A program made the translations under genes and the position numbers. Positions 2,195 through 61,289 of a stretch of DNA of 64,000 bases are shown here, in pieces. This stretch comes from a virus. Position 1 is the first letter of the stretch; each line of letters begins with the position of its first letter. The stretch is taken from the IMG/VR virus record IMGVR_UViG_3300043438_001998, positions 1 to 64,000 of that record, one strand, 5' to 3'. The notes below the pieces were generated by a model that worked only from the letters and a program-made list of their open reading frames with translations, searched no databases and was not told the origin of the DNA.

Positions 2195-3036
2195 GGCTGC
2201 CTGTTCTTTCTAGCGGCCAGTTGAGTATGAATCATGTCCATTTGTTCTTTGAGCTTTTTATAGCGCTTGGTTAGATGGAGCCCAGCCATCATCTTGGGCA
2301 ATGTGGCAGCAGTTACATCATTGTCGTTGCCCATGGTGGCCATGCTGTAACGTGGGTCATTGCCATTTTTGACCACCCCTACTCCAGCTGCATCTTCGGC
2401 CATGGTTTGCGGAATCTTGTCTAGCACACGGCCCAGTTCTGCATCATCTCTGCCGTACATTTGCAGCAAAAATGCACTACGCTGCTTGGGGTCGTTGCGT
2501 ACTAGATTCCAGGCCTGTCTGGTTTGAGTACCATGACTGACATCTACTGATTGTCCGTTGATATCAATTACTTTGTGTCTTTCGTCTGCTATTATAACAT
2601 AGCCGTGTTGATCTGCTGTGGCACATTCTTTTAAATTTTTGAAGGTTTTAAAGTACCCAGGATTGCCATCTTTTTTGACACTGTCTGGCGCTAGACGCTG
2701 TGCATCCGGTGCACCCACTGCTGCTACAAAGATGGTATTTGCAGCATTAAACTGTGCAGGCAGTTTATACGGACTTGCGACTTCTAATATACGGTCACTG
2801 GGAATGCCCGCAGCATGCATCAGTATACTTTTGTCTGTAAAATTGAATGGGCTTTTTGGAGGTTCGGTCTTGTTACTGGTTGCAATAAACACACTGTCAC
2901 GACCAAATTTACCTTGCAGGCTTTGAAATACTTCCCGATGCCCCAAATGAAAAGGCTGGAACCGACCTGGATATAATACCACCAGTTGCGGTGCAGCCTC
3001 GTCTAAATACCTCTCAAATAAATTAGCAATAAACAT
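2191..3036 (-). CDS. Cytidylyltransferase-fold nucleotidyltransferase with capsid-targeting-like leader
   Basis: From residue 20 the protein reads VVLYPGRFQPFHLGH, the HxGH nucleotide-binding motif of the cytidylyltransferase/NMNAT/PPAT superfamily, followed by a SNKTEPP segment. The leader MFIANLFERYLDEA ends in L-D-E-A, a good match to the T4 prohead protease site (I/L)-X-E-(A/G), so the enzyme could be packaged in the head and matured. The C-terminal part (from about residue 200) is helical. NMN adenylyltransferase is one possibility, but the substrate is not determined by the sequence. Confidence 0.8.
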   Translation of the reverse strand: MFIANLFERYLDEAAPQLVVLYPGRFQPFHLGHREVFQSLQGKFGRDSVFIATSNKTEPPKSPFNFTDKSILMHAAGIPSDRILEVASPYKLPAQFNAANTIFVAAVGAPDAQRLAPDSVKKDGNPGYFKTFKNLKECATADQHGYVIIADERHKVIDINGQSVDVSHGTQTRQAWNLVRNDPKQRSAFLLQMYGRDDAELGRVLDKIPQTMAEDAAGVGVVKNGNDPRYSMATMGNDNDVTAATLPKMMAGLHLTKRYKKLKEQMDMIHTQLAARKNRQP

Positions 3037-3065
3037 AAAAAATCCGTTCTATTGCTATATTTAGT

Positions 3066-3530
3066 TTATAAGTTTTCTAATAGCCAAATGTAGAATGGAC
3101 TAGCAAAAGGCAACTTCCAGGTGCCGTTCCACCCTAGATCCACAAACCCTTTGAGTTCCTTGATCTGCTTCTGTGTTTCATCCAGATACGAATCAGGATA
3201 GTCCGGAAAATAGCTGCTGGCAGTCCATTTTAGTGTTCCAATGTCAATTTCATCAATTTCAATGCTTTCAACATGCAGTAGCATATCCTCGACGATATTT
3301 CCGGAATCATCTGTTTTGGTATCAGTAGAAGTCTTATTTAAAAAACAAATGTTCAAGCAATGATCGCCTTCAGACAGTTCCGCATCAAATTCAAAGTATT
3401 CAGTCAACGTGCTCGATAACGTTTCATGCACATGTTCTATGTCATTGATTTTAATTTGAAACTCAGGGTATCGGGTTAACGACGCACTACTTAGTCCAAT
3501 TTTAAAGTGCAACTTCTCTTTATCTTCCAT
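3066..3530 (-). CDS. Beta-sandwich-like protein, paralogue of 21443-22039
   Basis: This 154-residue protein has strand-rich sequence with FQIKINDIEHVHETL, GDHCLNICFLNKTS and an ending SPFYIWLLENL. The protein at 21443-22039 shares the layout: opening strand, an LDHNQIELHYTNK segment and SEPFYDWVQNL. The shared layout suggests a carbohydrate-binding-like or decoration module present in several copies. No catalytic residues are evident. A structural or adhesion role is inferred. Confidence 0.55.
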   Translation of the reverse strand: MEDKEKLHFKIGLSSASLTRYPEFQIKINDIEHVHETLSSTLTEYFEFDAELSEGDHCLNICFLNKTSTDTKTDDSGNIVEDMLLHVESIEIDEIDIGTLKWTASSYFPDYPDSYLDETQKQIKELKGFVDLGWNGTWKLPFASPFYIWLLENL

Positions 3531-16531: not shown

Positions 16532-17533
16532 ATGCTGAACTACAAAGATATACGCCGCGTACACCTTGAGATAAGCACCAGGTGTAATGCGGCGTGCCCT
16601 GAATGTCCACGAAATTTTCGTGGTGTTGACATAGTAGACACCTATCCCATATGTGATATGAGTTTAGATCAGGCAAAAAAGATCTTTACAACTTCTTTTT
16701 TATTACAATTAGATCAAATTCTCATCAATGGCAATTACGGTGATTTTATCACTGCACATGATGGTCTGGAGATTGTGGAATATTTTTTAACAGTCAATCC
16801 CAACATAAAAATCATAATCAGCACAAATGCCAGCGGCCGTCCACATATATGGCGTCAATTAGGTGAGCTTGGGGTAGAAGTTCAGTTTAGAATTGATGGA
16901 CTAGCAGATACTCATCATCTGTATAGACAATATACAAACTTTGAATTAATATTGGAGAATGCATTAAAGTTTATACAAGCAGGAGGCTATGCCATATGGG
17001 CAATGATTAAATTTGATCATAACAAACATCAGATATCTCAGGCTGAAATATTATCTAAAGCAATGGGATTTAAAAGATTTGAATTGGTTGATGCTGGTAG
17101 GGACACCACTGTGGTCTTTACTAGAGATAAACAACTTAGTCACGTAATAGGCAATTATCAAGGACCAACAGACTATGATTTATTATATGATCAATATCAA
17201 CAGTATATTAGCAATCCTGACATTACTTTAAAAAAAGTACAAATACAAGAACGAACCATTAAATGTTATTCAAAAGAAAATAAAGAAGTATATGTGTCTG
17301 CCAATGGAGAAATATATCCTTGTTGTTGGTTAGGATTTTATCCTCTTAGTAAACAAGGAAATCCTAGTACGTTTCAGTTACGGCCGTTAATTAAAGAAAA
17401 TAATGCACTTGAATATAGCATAGAACATGCAATCGCATGGTTTAATCAAATTGAGTCTACGTGGAGTAAAACAGTACTAGATGGAAAAATCTATACTTGC
17501 AATGAGACCTGCGGGAGTAGAGCTGTAAGTTGA
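16532..17533 (+). CDS. Radical SAM/SPASM-type protein
   Basis: The radical SAM cluster motif CNAACPEC (CX3CX2C) is at about residues 18-25. The C-terminal part has YVSANGEIYPCCWLGF and CNETCG, resembling a SPASM-type auxiliary cluster region. It would cleave S-adenosylmethionine to start radical chemistry on a peptide or glycan. It is one of four radical SAM proteins in the window. Its 3' end overlaps the convergent nucleotidase gene by 43 bp. Confidence 0.85.
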   Translation: MLNYKDIRRVHLEISTRCNAACPECPRNFRGVDIVDTYPICDMSLDQAKKIFTTSFLLQLDQILINGNYGDFITAHDGLEIVEYFLTVNPNIKIIISTNASGRPHIWRQLGELGVEVQFRIDGLADTHHLYRQYTNFELILENALKFIQAGGYAIWAMIKFDHNKHQISQAEILSKAMGFKRFELVDAGRDTTVVFTRDKQLSHVIGNYQGPTDYDLLYDQYQQYISNPDITLKKVQIQERTIKCYSKENKEVYVSANGEIYPCCWLGFYPLSKQGNPSTFQLRPLIKENNALEYSIEHAIAWFNQIESTWSKTVLDGKIYTCNETCGSRAVS

Positions 17534-18240: not shown

Positions 18241-19380
18241 TTACTCCTTTAACAAAGCCGTTAGTTTTGGTAAGTAATCATTTATGTTCAAATTTCTAAA
18301 CTCCTTTGTAAGATTGATTTCTTCAAAAAATTTATTCCGCATAGACGATGAGTAATTTACTGTTTTAATATAATCAACTAAAAATGATAAATTAAAGTTT
18401 ATTTCCTGCAAATATGTAATTATACTATGCTTTTCTTTATCATTGAATATTTGTAGAGAGTAATGCAACGGATATTCGCAAAATATCCATGCAGGTTCAA
18501 TTTTTAGTTCTTGCACTAATTCGATAACAGGATCCAAATACAATATGTTTAACGCACTTATTACAGTATGAGTATTAAAACTGATGTTAGATTCACGCAA
18601 AAATTTAATATTATTTAAAACAGCATCCCAACTACCTGTAGTTCTAATGTAATAAAATTGCTCTTTGGTGGCATCTAAGCTTAATGTGATATGTACTTTT
18701 TTAAATTTCTTAAGTGTATCGTGCATTTTACCATGAATTTCTACAGTTCCGTTAGAAGTGTAATATAAGGTACAATTTGATGAGTTGCCGTCACTAATAA
18801 TCTTTTCTAATATCTTCAGATGACTTAAATTTAAGAAAGGTTCACCGCCCATAATAGATACTTTTTCGACTGAACTAAAATCTTCGTTACAAACATTCTC
18901 TAATAGAGATTGTGTGTATCCGGCACCTGTATATTTTTTATTTGGGAATAATTTCTTATGCTTCCATTCATCCTCAATCCAATGACTAGAACTTGACCAT
19001 GATCCGCAGGTCCTGCAGGCCAAGTTACAATTGATCCCGCTATTAATTACTAAATTTTTTATTTTCTTATCAACGATCTGTTTGTTGTATGTGTCATGTA
19101 ATTGTTCCAAGGTTGGATTATCATCTTGAAATAGCGCATATTGCCGTAAACTTGTTATTCCGTTGTTCTCATCGTCCCAGCACCCGCTACATTCAACACT
19201 TTTTATTCCTTTTAAAATATTTTTTTGGATATTCACAACTGTAGGAGAATTAATTAGGTTATGGAACGTTATGTTTTTTTGTCCTGGTATCGAAACCTCG
19301 CAACAAATGTTTGATAATCGATGATCAAATCCACCAAAGGCATTGGTGCAATAGGTGTTAAGATTTAATTTGTCTGTCAT
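18241..19380 (-). CDS. Radical SAM protein with N- and C-terminal twitch-like regions
   Basis: The cluster motif NCNLACRTCGS (CX3CX2C) is near residue 118, far from the N-terminus. An earlier Cys-rich block (ICCEVSIPG, ECSGCWDDE) could bind an auxiliary cluster. The layout matches the protein at 54941-56041 (SIMGGEPFLN versus HFNGGEPFMT). Peptide or nucleotide-sugar modification is conceivable. The gene is AT-rich relative to its neighbours, which suggests acquisition. Confidence 0.8.
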   Translation of the reverse strand: MTDKLNLNTYCTNAFGGFDHRLSNICCEVSIPGQKNITFHNLINSPTVVNIQKNILKGIKSVECSGCWDDENNGITSLRQYALFQDDNPTLEQLHDTYNKQIVDKKIKNLVINSGINCNLACRTCGSWSSSSHWIEDEWKHKKLFPNKKYTGAGYTQSLLENVCNEDFSSVEKVSIMGGEPFLNLSHLKILEKIISDGNSSNCTLYYTSNGTVEIHGKMHDTLKKFKKVHITLSLDATKEQFYYIRTTGSWDAVLNNIKFLRESNISFNTHTVISALNILYLDPVIELVQELKIEPAWIFCEYPLHYSLQIFNDKEKHSIITYLQEINFNLSFLVDYIKTVNYSSSMRNKFFEEINLTKEFRNLNINDYLPKLTALLKE

Positions 19381-20055: not shown

Positions 20056-21486
20056 TTATTTAAGATAAGTTTTAAGATTTTCGTTCCACTCAATAAGTTT
20101 TGTTTCTAGTCTATCTAGTGGCCATTTTTGCCTTCTTGCTTCGGTTAATATGTTTATTGTTCGCTGGTAGCGTTCTGCTACAGTAAAATCTTTATTTTTT
20201 TTGCTACGATAAAATAATACTTTGTTTGCAGTTTGATTTTTAACATCGTCTGTATAATACAAATTGGGGTCAGCAGACAGTCTAGTATCAGCTAGTAGTC
20301 CTGGGTGTCCGTTTATTGCTGCAGATGAGATAGTGCCATCTGCAACATATGGCCGCCATCTTTTAAAAATTTCAAGATATTCTAAATGTTCTTGACTGGT
20401 TTCGGACGGCCATGTGGTCATTAACTGAAATTGATTTGTTAACCCTACTCTGCTGCAGTTTTCTAGATGCCAATCTACGTCTTCGTTAGTAAATTTTTTA
20501 TCCATTTCAAATCTTATACGATCAACGCCAGTCTCTATGCCTACATTAAGAAAGAAACCACCGGAGTTCTTAATCATATCAAACACCTCTTTGCTATGAC
20601 TGGCACTAGGTCTTATGATAAAGAATCCGCTCCATTTAAAATTACGTGCATCAGGGTAATTATTCAAAGTTGCGCAAAATTTGCTAAATTCTTTTAGACT
20701 ACCGTTAAGTAAACTATCTGCAAAATAGAAATTTTTAGTGCCATGAGTTTCGTAGTATCTAATCATTTCCTGCGCTATGCTACTACCTTTTCTATAACGA
20801 TATTTAGGCCAATATTTTTCTATATCACAAAACGTACATTTCTTAACGCACCCCCTGCTGCCATAAACATAAAAATCGCGCTCGTTATTGGGATAATCGT
20901 ACATATCTAGGTTATAATAGTTATAGTTTGGTAGCGGTAAAACCTCAATATCTTCAATTTGCTTGGCTGGGATCCCATTAATACCGGGGTATTTGGTATT
21001 ACCTTTAAATAATTCTACTAAACATATTTCGCCCTCGCCTTGTATGTAATAGTCTACTAAATTCTTATTATACAATAACTCACCGCAAGTTTCCAGATTA
21101 AATTTAAATTCAGTGCCTGGCCCACCTACAACAATTTTTGCTCTAGTTTTTCCTTTTAGCCACTTACACAAATCATAGAGACTAGCAAAGTCAAACATTG
21201 TCAACTGTGACAACAAGATCCAGTCAACGTCTAGAGTACTAGCAGTAAGATTATATTCATACAGATATTCTGGTACTATGTCAATATCGTACACAAATGA
21301 ATATGTTTTCTTTTTATTTTGCCACCATAAATTTTCATTATCGCGAAATAAATTTATATTTAAGTCTATAGCATGAACTTCGTGCCCGTTCTGTCTGGCT
21401 ACCTCGCAGAGAATTGCTCCAGCAATTGGTGGCCGATGGGGTTCAAGGTAAGGTGTGTTTATTACTAGCGTCTTTGTTTTTTGCAT
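20056..21486 (-). CDS. B12-binding-domain radical SAM protein
   Basis: Residues 1-180 form a Rossmann-type region typical of B12-binding radical SAM enzymes (LVINTPYLEPHRPPIAGAI, AKIVVGGPGTEF, YYIQGEGE). The radical SAM motif GCVKKCTFCD (CX3CX2C) is near residue 210, then NVGIETGVDRIR. Such enzymes often methylate unactivated carbons. At 476 residues the length is full. Its start lies 44 bp inside the preceding gene. Confidence 0.85.
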   Translation of the reverse strand: MQKTKTLVINTPYLEPHRPPIAGAILCEVARQNGHEVHAIDLNINLFRDNENLWWQNKKKTYSFVYDIDIVPEYLYEYNLTASTLDVDWILLSQLTMFDFASLYDLCKWLKGKTRAKIVVGGPGTEFKFNLETCGELLYNKNLVDYYIQGEGEICLVELFKGNTKYPGINGIPAKQIEDIEVLPLPNYNYYNLDMYDYPNNERDFYVYGSRGCVKKCTFCDIEKYWPKYRYRKGSSIAQEMIRYYETHGTKNFYFADSLLNGSLKEFSKFCATLNNYPDARNFKWSGFFIIRPSASHSKEVFDMIKNSGGFFLNVGIETGVDRIRFEMDKKFTNEDVDWHLENCSRVGLTNQFQLMTTWPSETSQEHLEYLEIFKRWRPYVADGTISSAAINGHPGLLADTRLSADPNLYYTDDVKNQTANKVLFYRSKKNKDFTVAERYQRTINILTEARRQKWPLDRLETKLIEWNENLKTYLK

Positions 21487-54940: not shown

Positions 54941-56041
54941 ATGACAAACTACTGCCCTGAACTTTTCCAAACAATGTATGTGCAAAAACTCAATGAAAAC
55001 GAAGTTAAGCTAGGTCATTGCTGTAACTCAGCAAGATCTGATCCAGTCTCAACAGTTGACATGCATCATGAATTCTTAAAGAAAGGAAGAGTGTTCTACT
55101 TAGAACACAACAAGTTACCACCTGCCTGCAATATCTGCGTTGATTTAGAAAATAAAGGAATTTATACTCTTAGGCTACTTAGTTTAGAAAAAATTACACA
55201 AGAAGTAACAGTACCAAAACTTGAACTGTTGTTTTATAATTGTGATCCTATATGCAATCTAAAATGTATCATGTGCAACAGCGAATGGAGTTCGGCCTGG
55301 ATCGATGACGAAATAAAACTTGGTATTCGATCAGATTTAAAAATAAATCGCACAAAAAATAACAATCTGTATCATGACATGGATCTTTCAAATTTGACTG
55401 CAATTCATTTTAATGGCGGCGAACCATTTATGACTCGGGATCATTTAAATTTATTAGCATTTGTCTGTCAAACCAGATCATCAAAAGACATAAGCGTAAC
55501 CTACAACACCAACGCCACGTGGCCAATTACTCAAGAGATAATTGACATGTGGGCCAAGTTTGGTGGAGTTACTGTGTTTTGCAGCATTGATGGTACCCAT
55601 GAAGTATTTGACTATGTTAGATACGGAGATTCTTGGCAAAATGTAGAGGCAAATATTAAAAGCTATCAGAATATAAAACTAGAACATTTTCAAATTGAAA
55701 TACATGCTGCAATAGGATTACATAATATTTTATACATTGATGAACTGTATTCGTGGGCTGATCAAAATAATCTTGAGTTGAAATTAGGATGTGTAACACA
55801 TCCTTTAGAAATTAAAAATTTTCCTTTTGCAGCAAAACAACAATTGATCAGTTACCTACATAGTCTGCCTAGTACAACAAACACACAAATAATTCTTAAC
55901 GCTGCCAATGCCATAGACGAAAATTCAGATATTGGTTGGCTTTACTGGATTAAAAATCTTGACCGTATCAGAGGCAACAACTGGAAGCAGAGTCTGCATA
56001 AGTTGTACGAGCTGGATCCAGAATATTTTGATTCTATTTGA
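54941..56041 (+). CDS. Radical SAM protein, layout as 18241-19380
   Basis: CX3CX2C motif in CNLKCIMC near residue 107, preceded by Cys-rich GHCCNSAR and ACNICVD blocks that could bind a second cluster. GGEPFMTRDH follows. 366 residues, plus strand, convergent with the tRNA-like and pqqA genes at its 3' end. Not a PqqE by layout, where the CX3CX2C motif is near residue 30. Confidence 0.82.
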   Translation: MTNYCPELFQTMYVQKLNENEVKLGHCCNSARSDPVSTVDMHHEFLKKGRVFYLEHNKLPPACNICVDLENKGIYTLRLLSLEKITQEVTVPKLELLFYNCDPICNLKCIMCNSEWSSAWIDDEIKLGIRSDLKINRTKNNNLYHDMDLSNLTAIHFNGGEPFMTRDHLNLLAFVCQTRSSKDISVTYNTNATWPITQEIIDMWAKFGGVTVFCSIDGTHEVFDYVRYGDSWQNVEANIKSYQNIKLEHFQIEIHAAIGLHNILYIDELYSWADQNNLELKLGCVTHPLEIKNFPFAAKQQLISYLHSLPSTTNTQIILNAANAIDENSDIGWLYWIKNLDRIRGNNWKQSLHKLYELDPEYFDSI

Positions 56042-56161: not shown

Positions 56162-56190
56162 AGACAAAAAGAAAGCCCTACAAGAGGGCT
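56162..56190 (-). terminator. Rho-independent terminator after pqqA
   Basis: Stem AGCCCT/AGGGCT with a 5-nt loop, followed on the minus strand by TTCTTTTT, about 20 bp after the pqqA stop. Confidence 0.7.
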
Positions 56191-56210: not shown

Positions 56211-56285
56211 TTAGCGATTAGCAATGTACATTGTAATTTCAAAACCAAAACGTAAATCAATTGCTGCTGGTGTGGTCCATGCCAT
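56211..56285 (-). CDS. pqqA: PqqA-like PQQ precursor peptide (24 aa)
   Basis: The 24-residue frame opens [17 protein letters not shown] and carries the PqqA hallmark E-I-T-M-Y with Glu16 and Tyr20. Known PqqA peptides are 22-29 residues with D-L-R-x-G-x-E-V/I-T-x-Y, and Glu and Tyr are fused by PqqE to make pyrroloquinoline quinone. AAGGAG lies 6 bases before ATG. TATAAT is upstream (56329-56334), a palindrome lies between, and a terminator lies after. Overlooked because of its size. Confidence 0.88.
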
Positions 56286-56305
56286 TTTAAATCTCCTTGT
56301 AAGTT

Positions 56306-56326
56306 TACATACTGCATTAGTATGTA
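56306..56326. promoter_or_regulatory. Palindrome upstream of pqqA
   Basis: TACATACT-GCATT-AGTATGTA, perfect 8-bp arms at 56306-56313 and 56319-56326. It lies just downstream of the -10, so it could be an operator or a 5' UTR hairpin. Confidence 0.55.
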
Positions 56327-56328
56327 TG

Positions 56329-56334
56329 ATTATA
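56329..56334 (-). promoter_or_regulatory. Candidate -10 (TATAAT) for pqqA
   Basis: Exact TATAAT on the minus strand 43 bp before the ATG; no good -35 at 17 bp, so activation is possible. Confidence 0.5.
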
Positions 56335-56409: not shown

Positions 56410-57048
56410 CTATTTCTGCATTAATTTGTCAACAAATTCAAGCAGCAGGTGATGCTGACCACCTGTCCATTTGTTTTGCATCCAGGAATAGCTGTTGTAC
56501 CAGTGGCGATCTGCTTCGGGATGGCATCCAATCAAGCCTACACGATCTTGCATGACAGCCATTGGTGCTCCGTTGGGGTAACTGGCCACTGTGTCGTACT
56601 GGCCATCACCCATATAGGTGCAACCATCGTAAAAGTACATGTGGGTTGGGTGGTTGTTCCAGGTCACTGGCATATGTTTGGCATGCGGTCTATGCGTGTC
56701 TGTGCCAGGGCTTCGAATGTACTGTATTGCTCTAACACGGTCAAGCAAGCCAAAGTAATTGGTATCGGCCCAATATGCCCCCATGCAAATGCCAAGATAC
56801 CTACCACCGTTGGCTACAAAATTACGTATACGTTGCCCATTAACTTGCATCAATTGATCAAATGAATCTGAGTCACCAAAGCCGCCGGGGACGCAGACCA
56901 GATCTACGTCATCAAAGAAATCGTTTTCTAATTCATGTCGGGTAAAAATTTTAAAATCGTAGTGTGCGCTCAAGGCTCGGATTATGCCATTGCCGCTTTG
57001 CACTGAACATTTGGGTTGATGCAAGAACAGTGCTATCTTGGGTTTCAT
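56410..57048 (-). CDS. Class I glutamine amidotransferase-like (BPL_N type)
   Basis: CVPGGFGDSDS, nucleophile elbow GICMGAYWA with Cys, and GCHPEADRHWY with His-Pro-Glu. The layout matches the biotin-protein ligase N-terminal amidotransferase-like family. Substrate unknown. Separate from 12356-12904. Confidence 0.75.
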   Translation of the reverse strand: MKPKIALFLHQPKCSVQSGNGIIRALSAHYDFKIFTRHELENDFFDDVDLVCVPGGFGDSDSFDQLMQVNGQRIRNFVANGGRYLGICMGAYWADTNYFGLLDRVRAIQYIRSPGTDTHRPHAKHMPVTWNNHPTHMYFYDGCTYMGDGQYDTVASYPNGAPMAVMQDRVGLIGCHPEADRHWYNSYSWMQNKWTGGQHHLLLEFVDKLMQK

Positions 57049-58851: not shown

Positions 58852-60255
58852 CTAGAAACTTATTTGACTTCTTAGCATGACTGCTTTTTCACCAGTTACT
58901 CTACTGCCTGACGCACCCACTGGGGCATTGAATTTGGTGTCTACATAATTGACCATGAATCGAACATTGTCATTCAAAAACCAAGTAATACCGTATGTGA
59001 TCGCTGTGGCTTGATTGGCTTTGCCTGCTACTACGGCAATAGTTTCAGCATCGAACTCACTAGATCTAATACCTACCTGCCATGCTCCAGGACCACCACT
59101 GGTAAATGCATTGTTTGGTTTGATCCAACCAAATGTGCCATCTTTGTAAGCATGACTTTCTCCGGTTAAATTGTATACCAACTGAACATAGTTACCTTTC
59201 ACTTCTTGATTGGATCCTGTGGCTGGGTCGTATTTGTAATTAAACTGCTCGCCCTGTACTTTCAGGCCTTTCCAAGCAAACGCTGCCTCAATGCCTTGGC
59301 GTGTTCTTGCAGTGTCGCCGCTTAGAGCTGACCCTGTGAACCAGGCACTTTGTTGACGAGCTTCAGTACGACCACTGGAAGGAGTTACTCCAGTCTTTAC
59401 ATCACCAGTACTGTACGCTGCACCCAAATGAGCCACAAAGTCTTTGTTCTGAATCAACTCAGCAAAGTTTGTGGTCACACGTCCAATAATATCTACACCA
59501 TCTACAGTGGTAGTCTTGTTGGCACGACCACGACTTGCAGCCAGTGCATAAGTTATACCTGCTCTAGGCACACCGTGTAACATGATGCCTGTTTCTTTAG
59601 CTGGAATAAACTCACCTTCAGTTTGTCCAATTAGGCTACGCTCCATGAAGTCAATGTTGTTGGAGCTGGTCAATTGCTCTAGACTGAACGGCATCTTGAA
59701 AGTACCAAACTGAAGTTGCATTACCGGATTGGCAGCATAATTGACCCAGAACTCATCTATTGTGGATGTGGTAGAACTGGCACCAACATCATTTCCAAAG
59801 TTTGCTAGCAACTGATATTTGAAGTCTTTGGCAATCTGTCCTCTAACTCCAAAGCGACCACGTCTAACTTCTAATGCATCTTGATATGGGTCTGTGGTTT
59901 GACCTGCACCGTACACTGGACTATAACTTCTATAATCCATGTGAATTCTACCTGTGAATTGTGCAGTGGTATTTCCGTCTTTGGATTTGATTCCTAGTCC
60001 GTTTTCCATTACAGCACCATCACTGGCTTTACTTAGTCTGTAGTTGTTGTTGTCTCGCAGGTCTTTGTCCACACGAGAAGAATTAAACTGTGCATTTTCT
60101 ACTTTGTCTTTGTGTGCTTCCACTTTGGTAGCATGCTCTTCCTTGGTTAATATTCCTTTTTGCAAAAGAATATCCAAGGTGTCTGTGTAATCATCTGCCA
60201 TTGCAGGTGACGCAAAGCATAGTGCTAAGAGTGATATAATAGTAATTTTTTTCAT
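58852..60255 (-). CDS. Phosphate-selective porin (OprP/OprO-like)
   Basis: Signal peptide MKKITIISLLALCFASPAMA, an N-terminal coiled-coil-like region (KVEAHKDKVENAQ), then 16-strand porin-type beta sequence with FTGRIHMDYR and FGVRGQIAKDFKYQLLANFG. Terminal Phe (RSQISF) is typical of outer-membrane barrels. Transports phosphate or polyphosphate. It is followed by PstS in the same operon. Confidence 0.88.
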   Translation of the reverse strand: MKKITIISLLALCFASPAMADDYTDTLDILLQKGILTKEEHATKVEAHKDKVENAQFNSSRVDKDLRDNNNYRLSKASDGAVMENGLGIKSKDGNTTAQFTGRIHMDYRSYSPVYGAGQTTDPYQDALEVRRGRFGVRGQIAKDFKYQLLANFGNDVGASSTTSTIDEFWVNYAANPVMQLQFGTFKMPFSLEQLTSSNNIDFMERSLIGQTEGEFIPAKETGIMLHGVPRAGITYALAASRGRANKTTTVDGVDIIGRVTTNFAELIQNKDFVAHLGAAYSTGDVKTGVTPSSGRTEARQQSAWFTGSALSGDTARTRQGIEAAFAWKGLKVQGEQFNYKYDPATGSNQEVKGNYVQLVYNLTGESHAYKDGTFGWIKPNNAFTSGGPGAWQVGIRSSEFDAETIAVVAGKANQATAITYGITWFLNDNVRFMVNYVDTKFNAPVGASGSRVTGEKAVMLRSQISF

Positions 60256-60263
60256 AATATTCC

Positions 60264-61289
60264 TTATTTCCAGATTGCTTGACCGCTAGGGTCTTTAAGT
60301 TCTTTTTTCCAGTTGTCCTGCACCAGTTTAATCACTGAAGCTGGCATGTGTACGTACTCTAATTCCTCACTCATCTTGGAACCGTTTTTGTAGCTCCAGT
60401 CAAAGAATTTTAGTATTGCGCGGCCTGTTAGTAGATCGGCTTGTTGCTTGTGCATTATGATAAAGCTGGCACCTGTTGCTGGCCATGAATCTTTACCAAT
60501 TTGATTTGTCAACAACAAATACATGCCTGGAGCATTGTCCCAATCTGCATTGGCAGCTGCCGCTTTAAATGCTTCGTCGCTTGGCTGAACAAAGTTTCCA
60601 TCACGATTCTTCAATTGAGCGTGAGCAATCTTGTTCTTTTTAGCATAGGCGTATTCCACATAACCAAATGCACCTTTGATTCTTTGTACCTGCGCTGCAA
60701 CACCTTCGTTGCCCTTGCCGCCAATACCCACAGGCCACTTGACTGCTGTAGCAGCACCAATCACTTTACCAAATTCTGCATTAGTTTTGCTTAGATAATC
60801 ACACCAGATGAATGTTGTACCTGATCCATCAGCACGATGTACAACTGTGATTGGTAGTGCGGGTAAAGTAACGCCAGGATTCAAGCTGGTAATGGCCTGA
60901 TCGTTCCATTTAGTAATTTTACCCAAATGGATATTGGCAATCACATCACTGGTAAGTTTCAATTGCCCTGGAGCAATACCGTCTAGATTTACTACTGGAA
61001 CTACACCACCAATAATAGCTGGGAATTGCATTAGACCTTCTTTTTCTAGGTCTTCTGGTTTCAATGGCATATCACTTGCGCCAAAGTCCACTGTCTTGGC
61101 TTTGATCTGTTTGATACCACCACCTGAACCGATGGATTGATAGTTGAGTCCGATGCCGGTTGCTGCTTTATACGCTTCTGCCCACTTTGAATAGATAGGA
61201 TAAGGAAATGTTGCTCCTGCTCCTGTTAAGTCTGCTGCTGCTACTTGACCTGTTAATGCAATCAGTAACATTGCTAATAGTTTTTTCAT
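60264..61289 (-). CDS. pstS: PstS phosphate-binding protein
   Basis: Signal peptide MKKLLAMLLIALTGQVAA, then TGAGATFPYPIYSKW, SIGSGGGIKQIKAKTVDFGA and HRADGSGTTFIW, the phosphate-binding loops. 341 residues, standard PstS. Periplasmic partner of host PstCAB. Closest in style to proteobacterial PstS. Upstream repeats resemble a Pho box. Known AMG in cyanophages. Confidence 0.97.
   Translation of the reverse strand: MKKLLAMLLIALTGQVAAADLTGAGATFPYPIYSKWAEAYKAATGIGLNYQSIGSGGGIKQIKAKTVDFGASDMPLKPEDLEKEGLMQFPAIIGGVVPVVNLDGIAPGQLKLTSDVIANIHLGKITKWNDQAITSLNPGVTLPALPITVVHRADGSGTTFIWCDYLSKTNAEFGKVIGAATAVKWPVGIGGKGNEGVAAQVQRIKGAFGYVEYAYAKKNKIAHAQLKNRDGNFVQPSDEAFKAAAANADWDNAPGMYLLLTNQIGKDSWPATGASFIIMHKQQADLLTGRAILKFFDWSYKNGSKMSEELEYVHMPASVIKLVQDNWKKELKDPSGQAIWK

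Follow-up and report, generated by a model that had tools for sequence, protein, structure and literature searches.

A pqqA gene in a jumbo-like phage and its recurrence in cultured phages and metagenomic viral contigs

Analysis of a 64,000-nt stretch of viral DNA (hereafter the window), which is part of a 69.6-kb (69,571 bp) IMG/VR virus record of a large, jumbo-like freshwater phage, revealed a short frame on the minus strand (56211-56285, stop codon included) that encodes the 24-aa precursor peptide of pyrroloquinoline quinone (PQQ), PqqA. An earlier note on this DNA had given the same coordinates but left the strand unstated. Searches with the Pfam profile PF08042 (E=4e-10; 39.9 bits; cut-off 21.1; whole model covered) and the NCBIfam equivalog TIGR02107 (E=4e-10; 39.3 bits; cut-off 20) confirmed the described likeness to PqqA over the whole length. 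The Asp-Leu-Arg-x-Gly block (Asp10-Leu11-Arg12 and Gly14) was found as described in that note, as were Glu16 and Tyr20, the pair that is cross-linked by PqqE and is separated by three residues. A PF08042 search across the full virus record detected this single PqqA match, which argues against a chance hit. PHROGs contains no family matching the window PqqA. The frame is a genuine phage pqqA with an intact coding frame.

The start codon is preceded on the minus strand by a Shine-Dalgarno (SD) sequence AAGGAG (56293-56298), at a distance of 7 nt from the ATG and not 6 as had been counted before. Upstream of it, the leader contains a hairpin TACATACT-AATGC-AGTATGTA with 8 bp and a 5-nt loop (56306-56326, minus strand), and 2 nt before the hairpin lies a TATAAT -10-like hexamer (56329-56334, minus strand). 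On this strand, a scan with the sigma-70 consensus detected no paired -35 and -10 elements, so that the hexamer stands without a recognisable -35 and the promoter is the weaker part of the description in the earlier note. A terminator-like stem-loop with a T-tract (56165-56190, minus strand) is located between the two convergent genes; its stem AGCCCTCTTGTAGGGCT (56190-56174) is G+C-rich, comprises 6 bp and lies about 20 nt past the pqqA stop, with the T-tract after it. For the palindrome downstream of the -10 box and the terminator after the stop, both part of the original description, the comparison with other phages gives good support.

The window encodes a clamp loader with about 52% identity to those of PA5oct-like Pseudomonas jumbo phages, and also a DNA ligase, a ClpA-like protease, an endolysin, a virion structural protein and 13 tRNAs. 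An OprP/OprO-like porin adjacent to PstS (58852-61289) forms a phage P-uptake pair. The upstream neighbour of pqqA is a BPL_N/GATase-like protein (56410-57048, minus strand), a marker of a group of large phages. This widespread unnamed large-phage protein is present in at least 215 IMG/VR stretches and has no PHROG match. The convergent neighbour is a twitch-domain radical SAM protein (54941-56041, plus strand; NF033640). It was considered as a phage PqqE and rejected, as it belongs to the twitch-domain family NF033640; the sole IMG/VR relative found for it is an identical copy. Altogether four radical SAM proteins are encoded in the window (16532-17533, 18241-19380, 20056-21486 and 54941-56041), two of which are of the twitch-domain family and one of which is B12-binding-like. 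Between the radical SAM gene and pqqA, the segment 56042-56155 is GC-richer and looks like one half of a tRNA (...AATTGGTAGACAGCATTGGTATGC... on the minus strand). Four other loci (L396, L045, L311 and L094) match parts of it over 32-53 nt, ARAGORN calls no tRNA there, and the segment is possibly a decayed tRNA gene. No other pqq genes were seen near the window pqqA, in agreement with the earlier note.

A tblastn search against 50,697 phage records revealed 12 matches, namely nine Methylophilales phage genomes (P19250A, four Melnitz, Venkman, MEP301, MEP401 and MEP402), one environmental phage and two records named 'Acinetobacter phage MD-2021a'. Both of the latter were rejected as phage evidence: one carries a bacterial-looking pqqABCD plus radical SAM operon by ppk, and the second has the same name. 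The record with the operon, INPHARED entry L004 (CAKLQF020000010.1), looks like a bacterial chromosome contig and is probably mislabelled. The count of nine genomes is not a claim on all Methylophilales phages, and MEP431-434, Venkman EXVC038S and HIMB624-A lie outside the tblastn matches. The isolates with pqqA belong to several lineages, including Kyanoviridae, Zobellviridae and others. In none of the nine Methylophilales phages is the gene annotated as PqqA; it is either unannotated or overlaps an opposite-strand 'hypothetical protein'. For Melnitz-1, the deposited hypothetical ORF (L003:2967-3062) is antisense to the pqqA frame at 3001-3075 and is likely a miscall. When 3.2 kb of MEP402 was used as query, the stretch matching the unrelated P19250A, MEP301 and Venkman was the 70-95 bp or so at pqqA. 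No phage pqqA is mentioned in the publications on the OM43 isolates.

Scanning IMG/VR with three degenerate DNA patterns for PqqA detected the PqqA core in at least 167 loci. Glu and Tyr were forced by these patterns, and conservation was therefore scored on Trp and Pro outside the pattern and on records selected by a neighbouring gene. All 163 pattern-found loci with a readable start showed M-x(0-2)-W-x-x-P, although the patterns did not demand Trp or Pro. Records selected by the neighbouring BPL_N gene alone contained pqqA in 18 of 50 long ones. Within 4 kb of this gene, the scores were bimodal (172-191 vs <=62), so that no decayed pqqA copies were seen there.

The examined flanks of the IMG/VR pqqA loci contained none of pqqB-E. 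The usual, though non-obligatory, linkage to these genes is therefore lacking in the IMG/VR loci, and solitary pqqA copies away from pqqB-E are normal in hosts too (PMC9851590). A search of IMG/VR revealed no close relatives of host PqqE or PqqC. Among 50 long pqqA records, of which 46 are IMG/VR entries and four are isolates, no PqqE above cut-off and no methanol dehydrogenase was detected, so that co-carriage of methanol dehydrogenase with phage pqqA was rejected for this set. The one terminase family tested was seen in 16 of these 50 records and IMG/VR contigs are only predicted to be viral, hence some of them are possibly host or prophage-edge DNA. This may apply to seven LGLEVTLYISNR-type matches (L018, L019, L057, L065, L100, L124 and L139), which are included in the totals but were not relied on as phage evidence.

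Comparison of the leaders showed an SD-like motif in 135 of 139 distinct pqqA sequences, almost all of them viral. Perfect hairpins with 6 or more base pairs were present in 60 of 125 distinct phage pqqA leaders, compared with 17.2 (maximum 25) in shuffled sequences, whereas host pqqA leaders had one in 18 (1.0 in shuffles); about half of the phage leaders have no detectable hairpin. A -10-like hexamer followed by a hairpin within 8 nt was found in 45 of 124 pqqA leaders as against 12 of 432 other SD-bearing leaders from the same loci (p=3e-22, which overstates independence because the sequences are related). A terminator within 80 nt follows 54 of 125 phage pqqA genes, compared with 10.4 in shuffles. 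The window has a single copy of the exact motif ACATACT-N5-AGTATGT. Of 409 loci, 18 contain this motif, and in every locus checked it is positioned just upstream of pqqA. The hairpin arms vary among phages (GTCGTAACA/TGTTGCGAC, GTTATGTC/GACATAAC, ATACATGT/ACATGTAT), which suggests that the leader hairpin is conserved as an RNA structure and not as a single operator. Leader and pqqA together align to other phages over about 120-240 bp with 75-82% identity, whereas the radical SAM gene does not.

The closest relative of the window PstS is the PstS of a freshwater Oxalobacteraceae metagenome-assembled genome (80% identity). The similarity of PstS and PqqA points to a freshwater member of the Oxalobacteraceae/Burkholderiales as the predicted host. 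A search in related Oxalobacteraceae genomes revealed PqqA in 16 of 23, several of which have two to three copies, some outside the pqq operon. Within the predicted host clade, PqqE was present in 13 and a PQQ alcohol dehydrogenase in all of the 14 genomes searched, so that a PQQ-using host, as put forward in the earlier note, holds for this clade. The dehydrogenase encoded near pqqE in one of the genomes (G013) has the quinoprotein ethanol dehydrogenase 6zcv/6zcw (PedH) as its closest match, and it contains a DYDG motif, the lanthanide signature. This enzyme is thus closest to a PedH-type lanthanide ethanol dehydrogenase rather than to methanol dehydrogenase, which had been offered as the example enzyme. 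Since the predicted host is an Oxalobacteraceae and the G013 dehydrogenase is closest to the PedH type, the suggestion of a methylotrophic host is not borne out for the window. For the hosts of the isolated relatives, the OM43/LD28 phages, methylotrophy holds.

In PQQ synthesis, the Glu and Tyr of PqqA are cross-linked by PqqE together with PqqD; each PQQ uses up one PqqA, while the enzymes are reused. We consider it likely that phage pqqA is an auxiliary metabolic gene (AMG) that would feed PQQ synthesis of the host from a small dedicated mRNA. The gene lies in a viral genome, as seen from the endolysin, virion structural protein, clamp loader and DNA ligase, and a pathway able to use its product exists in the predicted host clade. 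During infection, a short, stable and strongly translated monocistronic pqqA mRNA would start from the TATAAT-like box; the hairpin at its start would protect the message and the intrinsic terminator would end the transcript. Phage PqqA would then enter the host pathway, in which PqqD/PqqE would cross-link Glu16 and Tyr20, followed by the host protease, PqqB and PqqC. As PqqA is destroyed one per PQQ and the host enzymes are reused, the phage would need to supply PqqA only, and once host transcription fails PqqA would be the sole component it must provide. The resulting PQQ would keep the PQQ-dependent alcohol dehydrogenases of the host supplying electrons and carbon for phage replication. Such a replacement of PqqA alone fits the solitary pqqA, the strong ribosome-binding sites, the short terminated transcript and the lack of other pqq genes. 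One methylotroph has five pqqA copies, of which three are stand-alone; expression of its pqqA1 and pqqA3 far exceeded that of the other copies and was highest when PQQ synthesis peaked (PMC9851590).

The phage peptide could instead act as a decoy or inhibitor that ties up PqqD/PqqE or in some other way restrains PQQ synthesis or a process linked to PQQ. No other pathway gene accompanies phage PqqA, and its C-terminus differs in some isolate versions (MNK, MTR), which would both be in line with such a role. However, the reactive Glu and Tyr as well as Gly and Arg are invariant (Glu and Tyr being required by the search patterns), and the window peptide shares 23 of its 24 residues with the usual host PqqA, whereas a decoy would be expected to diverge or to lose Glu or Tyr. 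We therefore regard a decoy as improbable.

The near-identity to Oxalobacteraceae PqqA makes a host origin likely, and the gene might then be a recently acquired host fragment that the phage does not use. An alignment of the DNA showed only 56-64 of 75 identical positions between the window pqqA and solitary host copies; 8-13 codons differ synonymously and 1-2 non-synonymously. A peptide conserved to this degree over mostly synonymous DNA differences implies that the window pqqA is, as judged from these alignments, under purifying selection and not a recent carry-over. In addition, the leader is unlike those of hosts and common to other phages, and pqqA recurs in unrelated phages with no decayed copies near the marker gene. 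An unused passenger is on these grounds very unlikely.

We give just as little credence to the proposal that conservation chiefly concerns a small regulatory RNA, consisting of hairpin, short body and terminator, with the peptide being secondary. The enrichment of leader hairpins and terminators in phages and the predicted transcript length of about 160 nt would agree with it, but the gene is constrained at the protein level: over 125 leader-distinct copies, pS was 0.65 and pN 0.14. Moreover, nearly all leaders contain an SD, the hairpin sequence varies between phages, and an Rfam scan of the leader returned no family at gathering score. A chance short ORF resembling PqqA is already refuted, because although very short ORFs do match short profiles (the PqqA profile gave matches at E<=10 in 6 of 14 control genomes, none above cut-off), the window frame scores nearly twice the curated cut-off, has an SD, is conserved in many phages and shares 23 of 24 residues with host PqqA.

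The reading as an AMG for PQQ supply can be set beside known systems. Bacterial PqqA (PF08042/TIGR02107), including the stand-alone copies of methylotrophs, has the same length, Glu16 and Tyr20, the Arg/Gly core, an SD and often a terminator. In contrast to bacterial pqqA, the phage copies carry a -10 box and a hairpin leader, a combination absent from the host copies examined. As with classical phage AMGs such as PstS, which the window also carries together with the OprP-like porin, a single host-derived gene would provide a limiting component; unlike these, the product of pqqA is a consumed peptide substrate and not an enzyme or binding protein. In 2020, a PqqA was annotated in the viral population VP_266 from Lake Baikal, together with methanol dehydrogenase, and was proposed to support the PQQ-dependent metabolism of a methylotroph (PMC7678222). 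The Lake Baikal populations thus also encode methanol dehydrogenase, unlike the 50 pqqA records tested here, and the predicted host of the window is an Oxalobacteraceae and not a member of the Methylophilaceae as for VP_266 (PMC7678222). Viral pqqA also appears in a list of phosphorus-cycle genes of viruses published in 2026 (PMC13188868).

With these two reports (PMC7678222, PMC13188868), viral PqqA is already known as a kind, which qualifies the claim that phage pqqA is not a standard annotated AMG; its absence from PHROGs and the lack of annotation in the isolates speak for that claim. The breadth of phage pqqA, its presence in cultured methylophages and its leader appear to be new: no paper on these three points was found in a literature search whose scope left out most subscription papers and bioRxiv preprints. 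Standard annotation misses the gene, since it has only 23-25 codons and is absent from PHROGs.

On balance, we favour the broader view that PqqA is a common but systematically missed AMG, and that unrelated phages of PQQ-dependent hosts probably keep only the consumed precursor, on a dedicated mini-mRNA whose start-proximal hairpin is conserved in structure but not in sequence. The cultured OM43/LD28 phages with pqqA (Venkman, Melnitz, MEP301, MEP401/402 and P19250A) offer a ready test system. If this view is true, cofactor supply of the RiPP type would be a general target of metabolic takeover by phages, and the suggested rule would be that phages bring the substrate that a pathway uses up and not its reusable enzymes. 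Abundant aquatic bacteria depend on PQQ to oxidise methanol and alcohols. If their phages routinely supply PqqA, viral infection may keep up a key step in the oxidation of C1 compounds and alcohols.
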